A stretch of 64,000 nt of DNA from contig NZ_JAYMGI010000002.1 of the NCBI RefSeq assembly GCF_035825295.1, positions 4,946,501-5,010,500 of the forward strand. The letters run 5' to 3'. This DNA comes from Actinacidiphila sp. DG2A-62. GTDB taxonomy: Bacteria > Actinomycetota > Actinomycetes > Streptomycetales > Streptomycetaceae. Of the stretch, positions 18,354 to 29,792 are shown one piece after another. The first letter of the stretch is position 1. Every line of letters starts with the position of its first letter. Under the pieces are notes generated by a model. The model searched no databases. It was not told the origin of the DNA and saw only the letters and a program-made list of their open reading frames with translations. The translations under genes were made by a program, and so were the position numbers.

Positions 18354-19104
18354 GCAGCTGCGGAGGGTGGCGCGGGCCAGACGGTGCGTATCGGCGCCAG
18401 CGACGTCGCCGTGGTGCAGAGCATGACGGACAAGATCGCGGACATTCTCGATGAACTCGGCGGGGCCCACGCGCGTCCCATGGCAGCGGCGTTCGTCGTG
18501 AACCCCGCTGCTGCGCGGGATGGCGTTGCAGGCCGCGAACCTCAAGCACGCCAACAAGGCCCTGTCGCTGGCCGATTCCGCGGCCGAGGCCGCGCCTCGT
18601 TCCGGCCCGCGCCTGCAGGCGTTTCTGCGCGGACAGCAGGCCCACGGAGCGGCCCTGGTCGGCGACCGTCGTCTCGCTTTCGCCCATCTCGCCGACACCG
18701 AGGCGGCGTTGTCGAAGGCCGACAACCGCAGGGACGCGATCGGCGGATACGACCAGGCGGCGTACCACTTCCACGTGTCCAGCGTCCTGTACGCCTTGGG
18801 CGACCTTCCGGGGTCCATCGAGGCGATGAAGGCGTCGAACCGGGCACGTCCGGCGGTCGAACGCCAGGGCAACGCCCACGCCAACGGTCTGCTTGCCCAG
18901 CGCCAGATGGAGTTGGGACACCTGGAAGCGGCCTGCGAGACATGGCACGCGTTCCTCGACGACTACGCCACACTGGCCTCCGCCCGCGCCGACGAGCACT
19001 TCGACGTGCTGCGCCGCCGCATCCGCCCCCACCTGGGCAACGCGAAAGCACGCGAACTGAACACCCGTGCACGGGAGATGGCCCAGCAGAAAGCGCTGCG
19101 CTGA
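18354..19104 (+). pseudogene. truncated, frameshifted XRE-TPR regulator remnant
   Basis: The 3' part (about 18520-19104) encodes TPR-like helices (FLRGQQAHGAALVGDRRLAF, YHFHVSSVLYALGDLPGSIE, AKARELNTRAREMAQQKALR) typical of the C-terminus of Streptomyces HTH-TPR regulators. About 60 codons of upstream sequence lie in another frame (ASDVAVVQSMTDKIADILDE), the linker normally following the HTH; the shift is near 18520. The HTH is missing altogether. It is therefore a remnant; a short product from an internal ATG at 18520 is possible. Confidence 0.75.
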
Positions 19105-19178
19105 CCCGGCGCCCGCGCGTCTCGCGCCATGGGCCGGGGGCTATCTGTGCGTCGATCACGTCCATCACGGAGCTGACG

Positions 19179-19805
19179 ATGACCTACCGTGGCCTGATTC
19201 TCGACTTCGGCGGGGTTCTCACCGTCCACATGCGGCTGAACCGGGAGGCGTTCGAGCGCAGTGAGGGGCTGGAGCCCGGCGCCTACTACCGCGCGTTGAA
19301 CGAGCATCCGGACGGGGTGGCGGTCTACGCGGCTTTGGAGGTGGGCGAGGCCACGCAGGAGGACTGGAACCGCGTCATCGGCGGCATCCTCGGTATCGAT
19401 CCCACGGACCTGATGCGGCGCGCGCTGGCCAACCTCCACCTGGAGCCGGCCATGGTCGACGCCGCCCGTCGCGCCCGCGCCGCGGGCATCAAGGTCGCCA
19501 TGCTCTCCAACAGCTTCGGCCTCACGCCCTTCAACCCCTACGCAGCGCTGGGCACGTGGGACGGAGAGTGGGACACGATCGTCCTGTCCGAGCAGCTCGG
19601 CGTACGCAAGCCCGACCCGGCCATCTACGCGCACACACTGAAGCAGCTCGACCTTCCCGGCGAGGACTGCGTGTTCGTCGACGACCGCGCGGCCAACCTG
19701 CCGCCGGCCGAAGCGCTCGGCATCCGCACGATCCACCACACGCAGGTGGCCGAGACGCTCGCCCAGCTCGACGCGCTGCTGAATCGCGCGCCGACGTCGA
19801 ACTGA
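19179..19805 (+). CDS. HAD-family hydrolase
   Basis: Encodes 208 residues from ATG 19179. Motif I is LILDFGGVLT near residue 6, where the usual DxDx(T/V) is D-F-G-G-V; motif II is MLSNSFG near 108; the Lys is in VRKPDPAIY near 147; motif IV is VFVDDRAANL near 166. The layout matches GMP/IMP-type or epoxide-hydrolase-N-like HAD phosphatases of actinobacteria. Substrate unknown. The CRISPR array begins about 50 bp after its stop. Confidence 0.9.
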   Translation: MTYRGLILDFGGVLTVHMRLNREAFERSEGLEPGAYYRALNEHPDGVAVYAALEVGEATQEDWNRVIGGILGIDPTDLMRRALANLHLEPAMVDAARRARAAGIKVAMLSNSFGLTPFNPYAALGTWDGEWDTIVLSEQLGVRKPDPAIYAHTLKQLDLPGEDCVFVDDRAANLPPAEALGIRTIHHTQVAETLAQLDALLNRAPTSN

Positions 19806-19858: not shown

Positions 19859-20667
19859 GCTGCGCGCCCTTTGGGCCGATGAGGAACCCGCGAGATGGCC
19901 GAGCGGTCGGTCACCGGGCGCGCCGGTTGCGAGCCCTTCGGGCTGATGAGGGACCCGTCCACACGGTCCAGTTGACCGCGCCCGGCCCGGGTTGCGAGCC
20001 CTTCGGGCTGATGAGGGACGTGCGGCAGGTCGCCAGCGCGGAGCGGGATCTGGGGTTGCGAGCCCTTCGGGCTGATGAGGAACAGGCGTCGGCGCCCACC
20101 CCGTAGACCAGGGCGTGGTGTTGCGAGCCCTTCGGGCTGATGAGGAACGGGCCGGGTGTGGTCCACGCACGGCGCGGCGGTGATGTTGCGGGCCCTTCGG
20201 GCTGATGAGGAACGCGTGTACGCCGTGCATGGGGCGACCTGATGTCCCGGTTGCGAGCCCTTCGGGCTGATGAGGAACCTCCTGTGGGAGGGCGACGACC
20301 CGGCGGAGCCGGCGTTGCGAGCCCTTCGGGCTGATGAGGGACCTTGGCCGATCTCACCGATCAGCCTCACGGCCACGTGTTGCGAGCCCTTCGGGCTGAT
20401 GAGGGACCAGGGCCGATCTCACCGATCAGCCTCACGGCCACGTGTTGCGAGCCCTTCGGGCTGATGAGGGACCTTGGCCGATCTCACCGATCAGCCTCAC
20501 GGCCACGTGTTGCGAGCCCTTCGGGCTGATGAGGGACCAGGGCCACGCAGTCCGCGATCCACCTGGAGACCCGGTTGCGAGCCCTTCGGGCTGATGAGGG
20601 ACGGTGATGTTGTGGTCGGCGCCGACGTAGACGCGGGCGTTGCGAGCCCTTCGGGCTGATGAGGGAC
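19859..20667 (-). CRISPR. CRISPR array 1: 13 repeats, 12 spacers
   Basis: Repeats of 29 nt start at 19859, 19926, 19991, 20055, 20120, 20185, 20250, 20314, 20379, 20444, 20509, 20574 and 20639; spacers are 35-38 nt. On the plus strand the repeat begins GTTGCGAGCCC and ends GATGAGGGAC or GATGAGGAAC; the centre AGCCC..GGGCT forms a hairpin. The repeat at 19859 has four mismatches and marks the old, leader-distal end, so transcription is on the minus strand from a leader at 20668-20762. Spacers at 20343 and 20473 are identical, and the one between them nearly so. The repeat at 20185 carries one substitution. Matches the neighbouring type I-B cas genes. Confidence 0.97.
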
Positions 20668-20762
20668 CCGAGGGTAAAGGCGCAGGCCAGGCCGCGTCCA
20701 CGCGGGGCTTCTCGTGGTGCTTCTGCAGCGAGCCATCGGTAGTGCATCTGCGGTGGTCAGAG
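20668..20762 (-). promoter_or_regulatory. leader of CRISPR array 1
   Basis: The 95 nt before the first minus-strand repeat align with the sequence before array 2 (29147-29241). Both begin CTCTGACC, contain GATGCA-T/C-TACCG, and end with a block matching at 21 of 24 positions (CTTTACC then TCGG directly before the repeat). Leaders carry the promoter and the integration signals for Cas1-Cas2, which explains conservation in both arrays. Confidence 0.85.
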
Positions 20763-20936
20763 CGTTTTGGGGTGGCCGAAGTCTGTCCCGCAGGCTAGTG
20801 GTTGCGAGCGCGGAGGAGCGTCGGTCGCCGCTCGCTGTCAGTGGGGCTCGCTAGCGTGCTCGTCGCGCTGTGGCCTCGCCGATGCCTTCCTGCTCTGGCT
20901 CGCTAGGCATATAGCACTTCCCTAGAGTCTTCATGA

Positions 20937-21042: not shown

Positions 21043-21741
21043 GTGCGCATGCGGTTGAGAGTTGATGTCGCGTCGGATGCGCCCTCCCTCGCCTGGGACA
21101 ACCTGCACGGTCCAGCGCGCGGTGTGGTGTACGGGCTGCTGCGCGAGCATGATCCCCAGCTGGCCCGGTCGTTGCACGACGACGGGTGGAAGGGGCAGCC
21201 GATGAAGCCGGTCGGTGTGGCCTGTCCGCGGTTTCGCGGGGTGCGGCGGCAGAAGGGGGTCTACGCGGCCTCGTCGCAGGGGTCGGTGTGGTTCGCGTCG
21301 CCGGTGCCGGAGATCGCGTCGGCGTTGGTGAGCGCGTTGGCCCGGCGTACGGAGATCGACTGGGGAACCGCCAAGCTGCGGGTGCGCGGCTTCACCGTCG
21401 ACATCGACAATGCGGCCGTCGCTGACGGGTTCGTCGAGGTGGCGACCGCGACGCCCGTCGTCGTCCGGCACGACAGGTGGGATCTGCTGCCCGGCGACGA
21501 GCACTACGTGGAGCGCGTGACGCACAACCTCGTGCACAAGGCGGATGTGCTCGGTCTGCCCGCCCCGCAGGGGGTGCGGGTGTTGGAAGCAGGGCCGCGG
21601 CGGCGGTTCTCCGTGCGGGGCGCGCCTCGCATCGGGGCCCGGGTGCGGCTGGGGATGGAGGCCGACGCGCGGTTCGTGGACGCCCTGCGCTCATGGGGCG
21701 TCGGGCTCGACACCATCCAGGGGTTCGGGTGGGTGGAGTGA
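21043..21741 (+). CDS. cas6: Cas6 crRNA-processing endoribonuclease
   Basis: Encodes 232 residues from GTG 21043 (an ATG at 21049 is an alternative; neither has a clear ribosome site). Cas6 cleaves the pre-crRNA at the repeat hairpin to release crRNAs. The ferredoxin-like fold ends with the glycine-rich loop DTIQGFGWVE typical of Cas6, and a conserved N-terminal segment LHGPARGVVYGLLREHD places a candidate His. It is the first cas gene and overlaps cas8 by a GTGA junction. Confidence 0.88.
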   Translation: MRMRLRVDVASDAPSLAWDNLHGPARGVVYGLLREHDPQLARSLHDDGWKGQPMKPVGVACPRFRGVRRQKGVYAASSQGSVWFASPVPEIASALVSALARRTEIDWGTAKLRVRGFTVDIDNAAVADGFVEVATATPVVVRHDRWDLLPGDEHYVERVTHNLVHKADVLGLPAPQGVRVLEAGPRRRFSVRGAPRIGARVRLGMEADARFVDALRSWGVGLDTIQGFGWVE

Positions 21742-22964
21742 CGGACGCGCCGGCACTGGCCGTGACGAGCCACCCGCTGCAGCGGGCGGGCGCCTGGGCG
21801 GCGGCGATCATCGCCGGCCGTGAACAGCCGGCGGAGATGACCGCCGACGACCTGGCAGCCGTGGCCTCCCGTCTCACGAGCGACATCTGCGAGGCGGCCA
21901 CCGCATCGAAGGACGGGGCGGCGTACGACTGGTGGAAGGTCCTGTTCGCGCTGTATCCGAACTCGAAGGCGACGCACAGCAAGCGGCCGTCGGAGCAGCG
22001 GGCGCTCAAGCCGGAGATCGAGAACCTGTTCGCTCCGGACGCCGCGGGCGCGATCGTCCGCCCCTGCACGTTCTGCGGCGCCGACGCTGGCGCGGTGTGG
22101 GCGAAGTCGAACCTGCCGCTGTTCGACACCAGCAAGGCGCTCAACACCCTGCCGCCCGGCGTCCGGGGCTGGCCGGTGTGCCACGGCTGCCGGATCGCGA
22201 TGTGGGCCCTGCCGTACGGGGCCTGGGTGACGGCCGGATCGGCGACGGTCCTGTCCTGCGAGAACGAGGCGGCGGAGCGGGAGTTCGCGCGACGCAACGT
22301 CCAGCGTGCCCGGCGCATTCTGCACGCGGGATTCAACGGACTCGTAGCCGGCGCCCGCGCCGAATTGGTCGCCGTCACCGCCCTGCGCGACGCGGCTGCC
22401 GGGCTGTGCGCCACCACCCTGTGGTCCTTCAAGAACGACAACCAGGAGCCCTGGCTGCGGGTGACCCGCACCCGCCGCGCCGTCTCCGTCTTCCTGGCGA
22501 CGGTCGACGGCAACGCGTCACTGCGGCGCGGCTGGCACCTGCTGCGGCGCGCGCTCACGCGGTACGACGCCAAAGGCGCGGTCACCGCCGGGGGAGCGGG
22601 CGAAGCCGCACGGCTGTTGTTCGAAGCCGAGGATGGCCGTAGCCGGTCGCTCCTGCTGCAACTCCACTATCTGCTGAAGGAGTCGGAGGACTCCTGGCGC
22701 CTGGCCGACCGGGACGCCCTGACCCGACTCGCCTTCACCTACGCCGAAGAGGTCTACGGAATGACAACGGACCTGGAGCCCGTGGCCGTCCTGCTCACCG
22801 AGTGGATCGCCCGGGGTAGCAGCCCGCGCGGTCGCCTCGCCGAGTACAACAACGCCGCGCTGAGCGACTACCACCTCGGGCAGCTCCTGCTACGGGCGTC
22901 CGTGCGGCTGCAGATGGACGACACCGGCACGCCCATGGCCGGCCCCAGTACTGGGCGCCGCTGA
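21738..22964 (+). CDS. cas8: Cas8 (Cst1-like large subunit of type I-B Cascade), shortened by frameshift
   Basis: The readable frame encodes 408 residues from GTG 21738, overlapping cas6. Two CxxC zinc-finger halves are visible, PCTFCGADAGAVWAKSNLP and WPVCHGCRIAMWAL (residues about 110-155), the signature of Cst1/Cas8 proteins of the I-B Tneap group. The protein recognises the PAM within the interference complex. The frame stops at 22964, but homologous-looking coding continues in the next frame to 23170. One missing C in the CCCC run at 22943-22946 would rejoin them. Whether the shift is real decides if interference is functional. Confidence 0.85.
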   Translation: MTDAPALAVTSHPLQRAGAWAAAIIAGREQPAEMTADDLAAVASRLTSDICEAATASKDGAAYDWWKVLFALYPNSKATHSKRPSEQRALKPEIENLFAPDAAGAIVRPCTFCGADAGAVWAKSNLPLFDTSKALNTLPPGVRGWPVCHGCRIAMWALPYGAWVTAGSATVLSCENEAAEREFARRNVQRARRILHAGFNGLVAGARAELVAVTALRDAAAGLCATTLWSFKNDNQEPWLRVTRTRRAVSVFLATVDGNASLRRGWHLLRRALTRYDAKGAVTAGGAGEAARLLFEAEDGRSRSLLLQLHYLLKESEDSWRLADRDALTRLAFTYAEEVYGMTTDLEPVAVLLTEWIARGSSPRGRLAEYNNAALSDYHLGQLLLRASVRLQMDDTGTPMAGPSTGRR

Positions 22965-23170
22965 TCGAGCGCCGCCCGCGGGCCTGGGAGCAGCGGCTGC
23001 TGCTCTCCGCGCGGGTGCTTCTGCTGCTTCAGCAGCGCGGTGTCGCGGTCGGCGCGAAGGCGCCCGACCCCGAGGAGGAACGGCGGATCGAGGCCGAACT
23101 GGATCGGCCGCCGTTCGACGACAGCCACGACGACTTCGCGGCGGACGACTACAGCATGGGACCGGCGTAA
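22947..23170 (+). other. cas8: displaced C-terminal part of Cas8
   Basis: Plus-strand frame reading QYWAPLIERRPRAWEQRLLL onward, ending DDYSMGPA with TAA overlapping the cas7 ATG (TAATG). It has no start of its own and lies exactly where the Cas8 C-terminus should be, with the usual tight coupling to cas7. Best read as the frameshifted end of Cas8, giving a full length of about 477 residues. Confidence 0.8.
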
Positions 23171-24240
23171 TGAGCTATCTGGCAGGGACGGTCGTACTCG
23201 CGGTCCAGGCGGGCGCGCCCAACAACGGCAAGGGCGAGGACACCACGGCGCGGGTGAAGTACGCGCAGGTGCGCGGACGTAAGCACCCTTACGTCTCCGC
23301 GCAGGCGGTACGCCGCTGGATTCGCGACGGCATGGTCGAACTCGGTGACAAAGCCTCCCCGGTGACGCGGGTGGGCAAGGCGCAGGGCAAGGCGCAGAAG
23401 GCCAACACCGAGGCGAACCCCGTCAAGTTCGCCGACGACGACCTGTTCGGCTACATGAAGGCCGGTGCCAAGCGGGACGACTCGGCGACGACGCTGCGCG
23501 ACAGCCCGTTCATGCTCGGCACACTGATGTCCGTCGAACCGGTCTACCCCGCGGTGGACTTCGGAGTGATGTCGCGCGGGGTGACCGAACCGGTGCTGCA
23601 CGGGCACGAGTTCTACACCGCCGACCTCGCGGCCCCGTTCCTTCTGGACCTGCCGCGCGTGGGCACCTTCACCCTTCCGAACGCCGACGGGGTGGGTCGC
23701 CCCAATTACCTCACCGCGGAGCAGGCGCTCCAGGTGGCGGAGGCGACCGCCCACGGCGCGAGCACCCTGCACTTCCGCGATCAGCCCGCTGTACGGCTCC
23801 CGCTGGAGGAGCGCGCCCGGCGCGCCGCGCTGCTGCTGGAGGCCATGGCGAATCTCAGCGGAGGGGCCAAGCAGGCGCTCCACTACGGGGACCGGGTGCC
23901 GTCGCTGATCGTCCTGGTCCCGTTCAAGGGCGGCATCAACCCCCTGGCCAACGTCATCGACAGCGACATGGTCACCGGGGTGCGAGTCCGCGGCGACGTG
24001 CTGCGCCAGGAACTGGAGGCGTGGCAGGGGGAGTGGGAGGCGCCGGTGCGCGTCGGATGGCGTCCCGGCTTCCGTGACCAGGCCCGCGAGGACTTCGAGA
24101 AGCAGTGCAAGGACCAGATCGACGACGGAACCGTCGTGATCGGTCACCCTCGGACCGTGCTGCTCGACCTGGCCAGGGAACTGCGCGACGGCAAGCGCAA
24201 CGCCTGGTTCGACGACCCGGTCCGGCAGGAGGTGCGGTGA
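23170..24240 (+). CDS. cas7: Cas7 (Cst2/DevR-type Cascade backbone)
   Basis: Encodes 356 residues from ATG 23170. Cas7 forms the helical backbone that covers the crRNA spacer. Family features: N-terminal LAGTVVLAVQAGAPNNGKGE, the RKHPYVSAQAVRRWIRDG segment near residue 35, YPAVDFGVMSRG near 125 and LSGGAKQALHYGDRVPSLIV near 225, all characteristic of Cst2/DevR proteins. The stop overlaps the cas5 start (GTGA). Confidence 0.93.
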   Translation: MSYLAGTVVLAVQAGAPNNGKGEDTTARVKYAQVRGRKHPYVSAQAVRRWIRDGMVELGDKASPVTRVGKAQGKAQKANTEANPVKFADDDLFGYMKAGAKRDDSATTLRDSPFMLGTLMSVEPVYPAVDFGVMSRGVTEPVLHGHEFYTADLAAPFLLDLPRVGTFTLPNADGVGRPNYLTAEQALQVAEATAHGASTLHFRDQPAVRLPLEERARRAALLLEAMANLSGGAKQALHYGDRVPSLIVLVPFKGGINPLANVIDSDMVTGVRVRGDVLRQELEAWQGEWEAPVRVGWRPGFRDQAREDFEKQCKDQIDDGTVVIGHPRTVLLDLARELRDGKRNAWFDDPVRQEVR

Positions 24241-24941
24241 TCCCGCCCCAGCGGACAGCGACCGCGACAGCTGAGCCCGTCCCGGCCTGGCGCGCGGAGT
24301 TCCACGCCCCGGTGGCCTCCTTCCGCGACCCGCTCTTCCCCGGTGTCACCCGCGGGCTCCCCGTCCCGCCGCCGTCGACCGTACGCGGCATGCTGGCGGC
24401 GGCCACCGGGGAATCGCTGGAGCCGGTGGTCCTGGGGATGGCCGCGTGGTCCGAGGGCAGCGGCGTGGACACCGAGACGTACCACCCCATCGCGGCGGAC
24501 GGCACCAACCCGTCCTCCGGCGGCAGGGTGCGGGCCGTCAAGGGCGGGATGACGATCAGGGACCGCAGTTTCCTCGTCGACGTCCACCTCACCGTGTGGC
24601 TCCCGGAGCCTGACGGGGAACGGATCGCCCAGGCGCTCCGCCGCCCGCGCTGGCCGCTGCGCCTGGGCCGCTCGCAGGACGTCGTGCACCTCGAAGCCCT
24701 GCGCCGGGTGGAACTGCAGCCGGCCGCGACCGCTGTCGTGGACCACGCCCTGGCACCGCGGGACGGGCACGCGGTGGGTGCGGCGTTCGACTACCGCATG
24801 GCGACCCAGGTATCCCTCGACCGGCTGACGACCGCCTGGTCGGATTACCTGTGGTGCGACGAGCCCACTGGAGAGCAGCCGGTGTCCGGAGCCCTGCGCG
24901 ACCCGGACGGAGGCCGGGCCGTATGGCTGCTGGCCCCCTGA
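24237..24941 (+). CDS. cas5: Cas5 (Cas5t-type)
   Basis: Encodes 234 residues from GTG 24237. The N-terminal FHAPVASFRDPLFPGVTRG and PPPSTVRGMLAAATGES are the conserved RAMP start of Cas5 proteins, and WPLRLGRSQDVVHLEAL near 140 is the later conserved block. Cas5 caps the 5' end of the crRNA in Cascade. It overlaps cas3 by 19 bp. Confidence 0.92.
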   Translation: MIPPQRTATATAEPVPAWRAEFHAPVASFRDPLFPGVTRGLPVPPPSTVRGMLAAATGESLEPVVLGMAAWSEGSGVDTETYHPIAADGTNPSSGGRVRAVKGGMTIRDRSFLVDVHLTVWLPEPDGERIAQALRRPRWPLRLGRSQDVVHLEALRRVELQPAATAVVDHALAPRDGHAVGAAFDYRMATQVSLDRLTTAWSDYLWCDEPTGEQPVSGALRDPDGGRAVWLLAP

Positions 24942-27340
24942 CCGCGGGCGGACGGCAGCGCAGCCTTGCTGATCTGCGCGCCAAGTCGCGTCCCAGGCAC
25001 GACCCGGAACGGCTGACCACTCACCTGCGCGCGGTGCACGACGCCGTGGCGCAGATCGAAGCCCGCATCGCCGCCGCCGGGCCCATCGCGACGCGGTCCG
25101 GGTTCTGGACGGCCGTCCGCCGCGCGGCGCTCCTGCACGACGCCGGGAAAATCGCTGAAGGCTTCCAGCGGCAGGTCGAGCCCGGTGGGGCGGTGTGGGG
25201 CGAGCGGCACGAGGTCCTCTCGCTCGCCTACCTCGACCTGCTCGCACCGGCTGCGGGGTGGAGCAGCGCCGAGCGGCTGCTGATCGGCACGCTGGTCGCC
25301 TCCCACCACCGGGCGCTGCACGCCGCGTCGTCGCTCGGTGGCGGGAAGCCGGCGCTGTCCCGCGTGTACAACGAACGGACCAAGTGGGAGGAGGCGTTCT
25401 CCGCCACATCCGGGCCGGACGGCACCGTGGTTCAGGTACCGCGCTACCTGCACCAGCAGTTCCTCGCCTGGCTCAGCGGCTTCCTCGCCGTCGACCCGCC
25501 GCCGGCCGGCCGTGAGGACCCGCCGCTGGCACACCGCGCCAGCTGGGAACTCACCGATGTGCTCGACGCCTGGCGCGACCCGGTGAAACCCCACACGGGG
25601 CTGCTGGCCGTGCTCGCCCAAGGCGCGCTCACCCTGGCCGACCACGCCGGTTCCGCCCACGAGCGGCTCCAGACCCACATGCCGCTGCTGCCCGACTACC
25701 TCGAGCGGCTGCCGTACCCCGCCCATCAGCACCAACGGGAGGCCGGGACGACCCTGGGCCACCTCGTCCTCGTCGCCCCGACCGGCAGCGGCAAGACCGA
25801 AGCCGGCCTCGCCTGGGCCGCCCGCCAGGCCGACACCATGCCCGGACAGCCCCGCGTCGTGTGGACCCTGCCGTACCGCGCGTCGCTCAACGCGATCCGC
25901 CGCCGTTTCGAGAAGGGACTCGCCCCCGCTCCCGGCGAGCGCACCGCGGACATCGGCCTCCTGCACGGAGCCGTCGCGCGCACGCTCCTCTACGAAGCGG
26001 TCGAGGAGGACTGCGGGCCGGACACCGCCACGCGCCCGGTCCCCGACAAGGGCGACGCCGGCAAGGCACGGGCGCGGGCCAACGCCATGCGGCTGTTCGC
26101 CCAGCGGGTGCGCGTCGCGACCCCGTACCAGCTGCTCAGCGCCGCCATCGCCGGGCCTTCGCACTCCTCCGTCCTGCTGGAGCAGGCCAACTGCCTGTTC
26201 GTGATGGACGAACTGCATGCCTACGAGCCGGAGATCCTGGGACGGGTGTGCGCCGCGGCCCGGCTGTGGGAGCAACTCGGCAGCCGTTTCGCCGTGCTCT
26301 CCGCGACGCTTGCGCCGCAGCTCCTCGACCTCATCGGCGAGAGCGTCGAGCAACACGTCACCCTCCACAAGGCGCCGCCCGGCACCGCGCCGGTCAGGCA
26401 CCGCCTCGTCCTCGACGAGTGGCCGATCGACGCCCCCGACAGCGTGACCAGGCTCGGGGAGTGGCTCGGCGAGGGGCACAGCGTCCTCGCCGTCGTCAAC
26501 ACCGTCGACACAGCACAGAAGCTGTTCACCACCCTCGCCGACGAAGTCCGCGCGGCGCGGCCCGACGACCCGCAGGCGGCGCTGCTGCTCCACTCCCGCT
26601 TCAAGAACCGCGACCGCGACGCCATCGAGCGCCGGCTGCTGCGCCGGCACCCCGAACGCCGCGAAGGCGAGGCAGAGTCACGCGGCGGGCTCGTCGTGGC
26701 GACCCAGGCCGTCGAGGTCTCCCTGACCCTGGACTTCGACCGGGGCGCGGTGGAGAACGCACCGGTCGAAGCCGTCGCCCAGCGGGCTGGCCGGGTCAAC
26801 CGGCGCGGCCTCCACCCGCACGGCCCGGTCGAGTTCCGCGTGCACCGTGGGTCCGGTTTCCGCCCGTACGAGCAGGGCGCCGTCGAGGCCGCCTGGGAAG
26901 CGCTGAAGGCTCTGGGGGCCGAAGGCGCGGACGGCCTCGGCGAGCAGGACATCGACCGGCTGCTGGCCCTCGCGTACGACACCGAGTGGGGGCAGAAGTG
27001 GCTTGAGCGGGCCCGTGACGCCCGCGACGCCTTCACCGCGGAGTTCCTGACGTTCACCGACCCCTTCCACGACCGTACCGAGCACGCGAAGGCACTCAGC
27101 GAGCGCTTCGACACCGCCGAGGTGCTGCTGCGCGACGACCTCGACGAATACCGCCGGCTCGTCTCCGGCCGGCACGGCGATCCGCTCCTCGCCTCCGGCC
27201 TGCTCATCCCCCTGCGATACGGCCAACTCAACACCTACAACGCCGAACTCGACCGGCGCCTCGGCGTCTTCCTGATCGACGGCGACTACGACCCGGTCCT
27301 GGGCCTGCGCCCGCCGCCCGACCAGGAGACCATCCTGTGA
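24923..27340 (+). CDS. cas3: Cas3 helicase-nuclease
   Basis: Encodes 805 residues from ATG 24923, overlapping the end of cas5. Domains: HD nuclease at the N-terminus (LLHDAGKIAEGF with His72-Asp73, then VASHHRALH near 120), then a superfamily 2 helicase with Walker A APTGSGKTEAGL near 280, DExH box MDELHAYEP near 425, SATLAP shortly after, and the C-terminal QRAGRVNRRG motif near 625. Cas3 is recruited by Cascade to unwind and degrade target DNA. It is intact and of normal length, with all motifs present. Confidence 0.96.
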   Translation: MAAGPLTAGGRQRSLADLRAKSRPRHDPERLTTHLRAVHDAVAQIEARIAAAGPIATRSGFWTAVRRAALLHDAGKIAEGFQRQVEPGGAVWGERHEVLSLAYLDLLAPAAGWSSAERLLIGTLVASHHRALHAASSLGGGKPALSRVYNERTKWEEAFSATSGPDGTVVQVPRYLHQQFLAWLSGFLAVDPPPAGREDPPLAHRASWELTDVLDAWRDPVKPHTGLLAVLAQGALTLADHAGSAHERLQTHMPLLPDYLERLPYPAHQHQREAGTTLGHLVLVAPTGSGKTEAGLAWAARQADTMPGQPRVVWTLPYRASLNAIRRRFEKGLAPAPGERTADIGLLHGAVARTLLYEAVEEDCGPDTATRPVPDKGDAGKARARANAMRLFAQRVRVATPYQLLSAAIAGPSHSSVLLEQANCLFVMDELHAYEPEILGRVCAAARLWEQLGSRFAVLSATLAPQLLDLIGESVEQHVTLHKAPPGTAPVRHRLVLDEWPIDAPDSVTRLGEWLGEGHSVLAVVNTVDTAQKLFTTLADEVRAARPDDPQAALLLHSRFKNRDRDAIERRLLRRHPERREGEAESRGGLVVATQAVEVSLTLDFDRGAVENAPVEAVAQRAGRVNRRGLHPHGPVEFRVHRGSGFRPYEQGAVEAAWEALKALGAEGADGLGEQDIDRLLALAYDTEWGQKWLERARDARDAFTAEFLTFTDPFHDRTEHAKALSERFDTAEVLLRDDLDEYRRLVSGRHGDPLLASGLLIPLRYGQLNTYNAELDRRLGVFLIDGDYDPVLGLRPPPDQETIL

Positions 27341-27897
27341 GCCCCGCGAACCCTGGGAACTCCGGGAACCCCGGTAGCCCGGTTTCCCCGCTCGACCCCG
27401 GCGAGGACGACCAGTCGCTCGGCGGCGTCCACATCAAGTACCTGCACCACTGCCCGCGCCAACTCTGGCTGTACATGCGCGGATACCGCCCCGAAGCGCG
27501 CAGCGACCTCGTCGCTTTCGGCGAGGTCGTGGACGACACCACCTTCACCCGGCGCCGCGACGTGGACCTAGGCGAGGCGAAGATCGACTGGGTGACGGCC
27601 GGCGCGGTCGTCCACGAGACGAAATCCTCCCGGGCACCGTCGGCCGCGCACGAGGCCCAAGTGCGCCACTACTGCCTCCTGTTGGAGCGGCGCGGCATCA
27701 ACGTCCGCGGCGGCGTCGTCCACTACCCGCTGATCCGGCGCACCACGGACGTCCCCTGGGACGACGAGGCACGCGACCTCGCGGAGACGGCGGAGGCCGA
27801 CGCCCAGGCGGTCATCGCGGCCCCGACGCCGCCCGACCGCCTCACCCGCGGGAAATGCCGCGGCTGCTCGTATCTCGACTACTGCTGGGGAGAATGA
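27337..27897 (+). CDS. cas4: Cas4 iron-sulfur nuclease
   Basis: Encodes 186 residues from GTG 27337, overlapping the cas3 stop. RecB-like nuclease motifs are visible (VAFGEVVDD, then DLGEAKIDWV and VVHETKSSR). The [4Fe-4S] cysteines are one in YLHHCPRQLW and three in CRGCSYLDYC at the C-terminus. Cas4 trims prespacers and selects PAM-adjacent ones with Cas1-Cas2. The first 25 residues are a Pro/Gly/Ser/Asn-rich repetitive tail (GNSGNPGSPVSP) unusual for Cas4; translation might start later. Confidence 0.93.
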   Translation: MSPANPGNSGNPGSPVSPLDPGEDDQSLGGVHIKYLHHCPRQLWLYMRGYRPEARSDLVAFGEVVDDTTFTRRRDVDLGEAKIDWVTAGAVVHETKSSRAPSAAHEAQVRHYCLLLERRGINVRGGVVHYPLIRRTTDVPWDDEARDLAETAEADAQAVIAAPTPPDRLTRGKCRGCSYLDYCWGE

Positions 27898-27900
27898 CCC

Positions 27901-28881
27901 ATGGCCGCCGTCGGCCGCACCTACTGGCTGACCGAACCCTGCCGCATCCGCCGCGAGGACAACAGCATCCGCGTCGAACGCCCCGACGGCAGCCCGGTCC
28001 GCATCCCGATCACCGACATCCGGGACCTGATCGCCTTCGACAACGTCGACGTCAACACCTCCGCCATGTCGCTGCTGAGCCGCAACGGCGTCACGCTCCA
28101 CGTCCTCGACCACTACGGCAACCATGCCGGCCACTTCGCCCCCGCCGAATCCATGGCCTCGGCCGCAGTCGTACGCCGCCAGGTCGAACTCACCGCCGAC
28201 ACTGCCGCGCGCCTCGCCGTCGCCCGCTCCCTCGTCCTGACCACCGCCGAGAACCTGCGCTGGTCCCTGGACACCGACCTCCTCGCCCCGGCCCTCGACG
28301 CTCTGCGTACCGCCGTCCCGACCTGCGAGGACACCGACGCGCTCATGGGCCAGGAAGGCAACTTCCGCCGTACGGGGTGGGCCGTGCTCGACACCTTCCT
28401 CCCGCCGTGGCTGCGCCTCAACGGCCGCACCCGCCGCCCGCCGACCAACGCCGGCAACGCCTTCGTCAGCTACCTCAACGCGCTCGTGTACGCCCGCGTT
28501 CTGACCGCCCTGCGCAGCACGCCCCTCCACCCGGCCATCGGCTTCCTCCACGCCGACACCGACCGCCGCCGCAACACCCTCGCACTCGACCTCGCGGAGC
28601 CTTTCAAGCCCTTGTTCGCCGAGCGTCTGCTCAAGCGCGCCGCGGCACAAAAGCAGCTCAAGGAGAGCGACTTCGAGACCGATGTCGGCCGCGCGTCGCT
28701 GAGCAAGGACGGCCGCAAGAAGGTCGCCGCACTCGTCCGCGAGGAACTCGCCACGACCGTCCACCACCGCACCCTGAAACGCCAGGTCTCCTACGACGAG
28801 CTGATCCATCTCGAAGCGCTCAAGCTCGTCCGCCTCTGCCTGGAAGGCACACCGTACAAGCCCTTCCGGCCGTGGTGGTGA
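27901..28881 (+). CDS. cas1: Cas1 integrase
   Basis: Encodes 326 residues from ATG 27901, 3 bp after the cas4 stop. Catalytic metal ligands are visible: Glu in LMGQEGNFRR near residue 152, His in GFLHADTDRR near 218, and the acidic pair in ALDLAEPFKP near 233. The N-terminal beta-domain reads ITDIRDLIAFDNVDVNTSAM. Cas1 with Cas2 inserts new spacers at the leader end. Length and motifs are those of type I-B Cas1. Confidence 0.96.
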   Translation: MAAVGRTYWLTEPCRIRREDNSIRVERPDGSPVRIPITDIRDLIAFDNVDVNTSAMSLLSRNGVTLHVLDHYGNHAGHFAPAESMASAAVVRRQVELTADTAARLAVARSLVLTTAENLRWSLDTDLLAPALDALRTAVPTCEDTDALMGQEGNFRRTGWAVLDTFLPPWLRLNGRTRRPPTNAGNAFVSYLNALVYARVLTALRSTPLHPAIGFLHADTDRRRNTLALDLAEPFKPLFAERLLKRAAAQKQLKESDFETDVGRASLSKDGRKKVAALVREELATTVHHRTLKRQVSYDELIHLEALKLVRLCLEGTPYKPFRPWW

Positions 28882-28888
28882 GCCGACG

Positions 28889-29152
28889 GTGTTCGTCATC
28901 CTCGTCTACGACACGGCGGTCGAACGCAACCCGCACGTGCTGAAGACCTGCCGCAAATACCTCCACTGGACCCAGCGCAGCGTCTTCCAGGGCGAACTCA
29001 CCGCGGGCCAGTACCGCGCCCTGATGACCACCCTCGGCACGGTCATCGACCCCGACCACGACAGCATCGTCACGTACACGGCCCGTTCCCCCGACTTCAT
29101 CGCCACGTCCACGCTGGGCGTCTCTCTCGGAGGCCCGGGCGACATCCTCTGA
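28889..29152 (+). CDS. cas2: Cas2
   Basis: Encodes 87 residues from GTG 28889. The ferredoxin-like fold starts MFVILVYDTAVERNPHVLKT with the conserved Asp, followed by YLHWTQRSVFQGELT. Cas2 bridges the Cas1 dimers in the adaptation complex. Its last codons overlap the first bases of the array 2 leader, so coding and leader function share a few bases. Confidence 0.95.
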   Translation: MFVILVYDTAVERNPHVLKTCRKYLHWTQRSVFQGELTAGQYRALMTTLGTVIDPDHDSIVTYTARSPDFIATSTLGVSLGGPGDIL

Positions 29153-29241: not shown

Positions 29242-29792
29242 GCCGTCATCAGCCCGAGAGGGTTCGCAACGCGCTGACCGGGCTGCTGACCGTCAGCGCG
29301 GACACCGCCGTCATCAGCCCGAGAGGGTTCGCAACCAGGTCTCCACCTGGGACCTGAGCAGCGACGACGCCGCCGTCATCAGCCCGAGAGGGTTCGCAAC
29401 TCCGGACCGAGGTGGAGAAGCTCACCGGCTCGATCGCCGTCATCAGCCCGAGAGGGTTCGCAACCCCGGCGCGCCGGCCAGCTGGACCGCGAGCCCACCA
29501 GCCGTCATCAGCCCGAGAGGGTTCGCAACACGAGGGCAGCGCGGGCGGCGAGGAGGAATGGCTGGCGCCGTCATCAGCCCGAGAGGGTTCGCAACAGCGA
29601 CGGCAGAGCAAGGGTTTGGCGCTGCCACCGTGCCGTCATCAGCCCGAGAGGGTTCGAAACCCGCGGACTACGCCGCTGGCCGCCTCACCTGCGCCCGCCG
29701 TCATCAGCCCGGGAGGATTCGAAACAGCTCCATCAGTGCCCTGCCCGGGCCCGAGAGCTACGGCTGTCATCAACCTGAGAGGGATTCAAAAC
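29242..29792 (+). CRISPR. CRISPR array 2: 9 repeats, 8 spacers
   Basis: Repeats begin at 29242, 29307, 29372, 29436, 29501, 29567, 29632, 29697 and 29763; spacers are 35-37 nt. The 29-nt consensus begins GCCGTCATCAGCC and ends GAGGGTTCGCAAC. The last three repeats degenerate (GAAAC ending; then GGGAGGATTC; then a 30-nt form with several changes), which marks the distal end and confirms plus-strand transcription from the leader after cas2. The repeat is clearly related to that of array 1 read on the opposite strand. Confidence 0.97.

Follow-up and report, generated by a model that had tools for sequence, protein, structure and literature searches.

A putative hybrid spacer within a tandem spacer amplification in a type I-B CRISPR array of Actinacidiphila sp. 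DG2A-62

The window analyzed here, a stretch of 64,000 nucleotides, contains a CRISPR array (array 1) in which four successive spacers stand, from left to right, in the order A (20343), H (20408), A (20473), B (20538). H is best read as a genuine hybrid of A and B that arose inside a tandem amplification, rather than as an independent acquisition. More generally, we consider it likely that the A-H-A-B block results from a rearrangement within the array, in which the repeat-mediated tandem amplification of A was accompanied by an exchange or a conversion with B. The block, an uncommon by-product of an already known process, is ordinary in kind, and the hybrid call depends on two bases of a single assembly. 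The features of the locus are listed in Table 1.

Table 1. Coordinates of the CRISPR arrays, the spacers of the A-H-A-B block and the cas genes in the window.
Feature	Coordinates	Strand	Remarks
CRISPR array 1	19859..20667	- (crRNA sense)	13 repeats of 29 nt, 12 spacers of 35-38 nt
Degenerate repeat	19859-19887		leader-distal, far left of array 1
101-bp perfect direct repeat, copy 1	20314..20414		repeat-A-repeat-CAGGGCC
Spacer A, copy 1	20343..20378	-	sequence CTTGGCCGATCTCACCGATCAGCCTCACGGCCACGT
Hybrid spacer H (putative)	20408..20443	-	CAGGGCC (as B) + bases 8-36 of A
101-bp perfect direct repeat, copy 2	20444..20544
Spacer A, copy 2	20473..20508	-	identical to copy 1
Spacer B	20538..20573	-	presumed donor of the H edge; + strand start CAGGGCC, then ACGCAG...
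Leader of array 1	20668..20771	-	conserved with relative L025: 81% over ~133 nt, repeat included
cas6 (Cas6b)	21043..21741	+
cas8b	21738..22964	+	weak match (E ~1e-9) and synteny with relative L025
cas7 (Cst2/DevR, I-B)	23170..24240	+
cas5 (I-B), listed ORF	24105..24941	+	Cas5b NCBIfam model below its curated cut-off
cas3, listed ORF (Cas3b match)	24851..27340	+
cas4	27337..27897	+
cas1 (I-B)	27901..28881	+
cas2	28889..29152	+
CRISPR array 2	29242..29791	+	9 repeats, consensus GCCGTCATCAGCCCGAGAGGGTTCGCAAC

Direct reading and parsing agree that most repeats of array 1 have the sequence GTTGCGAGCCCTTCGGGCTGATGAGGGAC. Parsing of the repeats and spacers also returned every coordinate given by the first-pass annotation, including the identity of the spacers at 20343-20378 and 20473-20508, which makes array 1 a carrier of identical repeat-spacer units in tandem. 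The composition that this annotation gave to H, with the first 7 bases of B followed by the remaining 29 of A, is exact on direct reading. H lies between both copies of A, shares with them an identical suffix of 33 bases, and differs from them at two bases only, 20409-20410, which are TT in A and AG in H and B. The donor tract in H consists of these 2 informative bases within the 7 that match B.

The sequence around the changed pair bears on how the switch between A and B may have occurred. Leftwards of the pair, H and B are identical over 95 bases, and from the pair rightwards over 6, which together form the 101-bp perfect direct repeat. Copy 1 of A and B share 30 identical bases on the left of the pair (the repeat and one C) and the four bases GGCC on its right, and the homology beside the switch amounts to 63 bp if A had already been doubled before the exchange. 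It had been proposed that the switch occurred at the shared GGCC, seen as a 4-bp microhomology. The position stands, with the breakpoint within GGCC or just before it, but 30, 63 or 95 bases of perfect homology adjoin the motif, which closes a long run of homology and does not stand alone as a microhomology. One junction of the duplication lies within a spacer (bases 2-7 of H) and the other can fall in a repeat. The block therefore departs from repeat-mediated tandem duplications in which the breakpoints are in the repeats and the spacers remain whole.

The frequency of such edge matches was computed on arrays other than those of the window. We compared 59,924 pairs of distinct spacers, each pair from a single array: 18 share a prefix of at least 7 bases and 22 a suffix of at least 7 bases. 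Unrelated spacers of an array hence match over at least this length in around 1 in 3,000 pair-ends (0.00033 each, ~0.03%). For one given end of H, the chance of agreement with at least one of the 9 other spacers in array 1 is 0.003 (~0.3%), and it is 0.0007 (0.07%) for agreement with the two flanking places. The motif CAGGGCC starts 2 of the 556 spacers in a smaller survey set, and the window holds two spacers of this kind, H and B. Given that only two bases are informative, the edge match provides good but not overwhelming support for B as a putative donor.

We placed the block in the context of other arrays with a survey of loci near cas6 or cas1 only, parsed with a custom parser. The family collection around cas6 had matches in 20 of 394 genomes (20 regions), the class collection around cas1 in 78 of 394 (80 regions), and the phylum collection around cas1 in 83 of 384 (40 regions), some genomes having more than one locus. 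With the addition of the window and of a Streptomyces radicis locus (L010), and with the omission of L009 (on the contig of L026) and L011 (no array found), the survey comprises 142 loci, 122 of which yielded 208 arrays. These contain 4,303 spacers of 20-60 nt, with 61,892 + 29,770 within-array pairs. Duplicates were counted on 204 of the 208 arrays, leaving out four with a consensus shorter than 26 bases. Exact duplicate spacers were found in 36 of the 204 arrays, window included, and form 60 pairs; the two members are neighbors in 21 of these, two positions apart in 15 and three in 6. Outside the window there are nine near-identical pairs (1-8 edits), at 3-68 positions from each other, fitting related protospacers. 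None of the 35 other arrays with duplicates has a near-identical copy within a tandem cluster; the window alone shows one.

Some further matches of the survey were considered and set aside. Those of L043 stem from a single array that was parsed twice, and were discarded. In array 2 of S. radicis L010, the spacers 18967-19003 and 19167-19203, three places apart, have their last 18 bases in common and differ before them; one of them may be a second hybrid, but no third parent is visible. By eye, the 15-base suffix shared by spacers of L065 was attributed to related or repetitive targets, as were the related spacers of six other loci (L140, L138, L104, L096, L091 and L063), and the edge matches of L060, of the small L082 array and most of those of L031 to repeat-boundary artefacts of the parser (the exact duplicate in L031 was retained in the counts). 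A single array of L140 holds three related, diverged spacers (L140:11032, L140:11250 and L140:11541), whose source is probably an internally repetitive target.

A rearrangement leading to A-H-A-B could start with the tandem amplification of a repeat-spacer unit (A, or A-B) via misaligned 29-bp repeats, either by replication slippage or by RecA-dependent unequal exchange. At that step or in a further one, a tract of copying or strand exchange would run between the B junction and an A junction and end 3-7 bases beyond the repeat, inside the shared GGCC, which would leave two bases of B in a copy of A. The first-pass annotation invoked unequal recombination as opposed to new acquisition. We retain the recombinant origin as the best reading of H, but a single unequal crossover cannot yield A-H-A-B, and at least two events are required. 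More precisely, our enumeration of unequal exchanges starting from A-B indicates that three steps are needed if these take place between identical copies only. Two steps suffice with gene conversion (A-B to A-B-A-B, then conversion), or with the exchange of differently duplicated sister copies, e.g., A-B-B with A-A-B. A single round of replication with a double template switch would also serve. The choice among these event histories is not made by the sequence alone.

Recombination within the array is favored because A, H and A are consecutive, whereas the near-identical pairs found elsewhere are dispersed, because the edge match is improbable by chance and coincides with runs of homology at the switch, and because the survey shows duplications of whole spacers to be frequent. 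Some observations count against it. The window is the sole case of its kind among the arrays with duplicates. Neither A-B, A-A-B nor A-B-A-B turned up as an intermediate array, spacer A being absent from the 393 other genomes of the family (one per species); in a set of 102 loci, no array has a spacer in common with the window, the best pair being 10 edits apart. Furthermore, H and A differ at only two bases, and single-nucleotide variants of spacers are known in other species, being described in passages on Mycobacterium tuberculosis (PMC7708916) and Salmonella (PMC3356390). This raises the possibility that A was triplicated in tandem via the repeats and that the middle copy then underwent a TT to AG dinucleotide mutation, its agreement with B being coincidental. 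Tandem triples of identical spacers are indeed present in loci L091 and L104 of the survey. Yet, this scenario needs two adjacent changes that equal the bases of B, and a B that beforehand matched A at bases 1 and 4-7. Such an edge agreement concerns a tiny fraction of pair-ends (see above), and B happens to be the next different spacer, so that we regard the scenario as unlikely.

The quality of the assembly is uncertain, which also counts against a recombinant origin and opens the way to an artefact of assembly or polishing in the tandem repeat. The assembly (two contigs, 8.6 Mb) is 95.57% complete, when most relatives are at 97-100%, and the reading frame of cas8 is broken within a G/C run by what looks like a 1-nt indel. 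However, the suspected errors are indels, whereas in H two bases are substituted and the 65-bp periods are intact, which is not the usual error of long reads. The presence of just two contigs also suggests the use of long reads, which would span the block, and an artefact seems unlikely. Finally, although cas1, cas2 and cas4 are present with open frames and related targets do give rise to near-identical spacers, it is very improbable that Cas1-Cas2 acquired A, H and A independently from closely related elements with a chance likeness of H to B, as this demands that one 36-nt site be captured three times in succession with the same ends, on top of the coincidence with B, the nine near-identical pairs outside the window are never adjacent and have differences mostly spread across the spacer, and new insertions of the same spacer are rare in a published reconstruction (1% of complex spacer events, against 86% for duplications; PMC11472070).

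The preferred reading, a within-array rearrangement, has precedents in part. Duplication and deletion of spacer-repeat units through the repeats are established according to the passages on the topic in a 2021 review (PMC8047081), which present the mechanism (RecA or slippage) as being without direct data. As in the present case, the duplications they describe double a repeat-spacer unit in tandem in the middle of the array, by misalignment or recombination of repeats that remain intact. Those events keep the spacers whole, with a breakpoint in the repeat, whereas here the tract seems to end inside a spacer, giving a hybrid. Similarly, the relevant passages on Salmonella arrays (PMC3356390) report duplicated and triplicated units next to spacer variants of the SNP and VNTR kind, and a fused unit, STM7A/7B. 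The latter is made of a spacer, a partial repeat and another spacer, over 74 bp, whereas H is of unchanged length and has a 7-base edge from its neighbor; unlike H, the SNP variants are not traced in these passages to a neighboring spacer. The M. tuberculosis locus is comparable in evolving in the absence of acquisition, through recombination between direct repeats, with duplications in tandem and by rearrangement and with SNPs in spacers. In contrast with H, a spacer with two parents is not mentioned in the corresponding passages (PMC7708916). We searched the literature for a spacer built from two neighbors and found none described, a claim that is limited to that search.

The hybrid spacer is useful mainly because it shows where one end of an exchange tract lay, which duplications of whole spacers cannot do. 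Moreover, the reconstruction of spacer histories and the matching of protospacers can be misled by spacers that did not enter the array in their present form. One could go further and propose that repeat exchange routinely extends by a few bases into the adjoining spacers, so that their PAM-distal ends are slowly rewritten from their neighbors, but we find this doubtful. If true, such rewriting would escape notice, since most tracts would cover identical or unalignable sequence and the tools pool near-identical spacers under one label, and H would be a rare case where the flanks happen to carry markers.

The changed bases are unlikely to affect the function of the guide. On the crRNA strand of H they occupy positions 34-35 of 36, at the PAM-distal end, and in type I systems the seed and the PAM are at the opposite end. 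Hence, H probably guides to the same target as A, in which case the block would represent three doses of one guide; the effect of H on immunity is probably nil and the variant harmless. We found no protospacer for the exact cores of A and B in IMG/VR, for codon-degenerate forms of A (two frames) and B (one frame), for A, H and B searched by blastn in phage records, for A in plasmids, nor, with up to 3 mismatches, for A in 35 genomes of the genus and for A and B in 394 genomes of the family. These searches returned nothing, the array itself, or hits to unrelated hosts or genes with an E-value of at least 0.3, which were taken as noise.

The cas genes next to array 1 comprise the type I-B effector set (cas6, cas8b, cas7, cas5 and cas3) and the adaptation genes of a type I-B locus (cas1, cas2 and cas4); the nearest named relatives by Cas6 are Streptomyces. 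The listed ORF of cas5 starts inside cas7, and its true start is probably further in. Relative to L025, cas8b has a 1-nt difference in the G/C run near 22938-22946 that puts around the last 76 residues out of frame, which may be a real inactivation or an indel of sequencing or assembly. The repeat-proximal end of the leader of array 1 resembles, in reverse complement, that of array 2 (49 of 57 positions identical, repeat included). This likeness, the conservation of the leader with L025 and the degenerate repeat at the far left place the leader of array 1 on its right and the crRNA on the minus strand. Array 2 has no duplicate spacers and is decayed at its distal end, where the last repeats have several substitutions.

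Two further observations concern the repeats of array 1. Repeats 4-7 (20055-20278) end in GAGGAAC, whereas the other regular repeats end in GAGGGAC; this variant is interleaved in the array, not restricted to its old end, and may be the trace of an older rearrangement. The repeat of array 1 is also found far from the cas locus, in a two-repeat remnant at L001:1435-1526 (G000:C2, about 2551320-2551411), with one exact repeat, another with 3 mismatches, and a match to the Cas1 family ~15 kb away.
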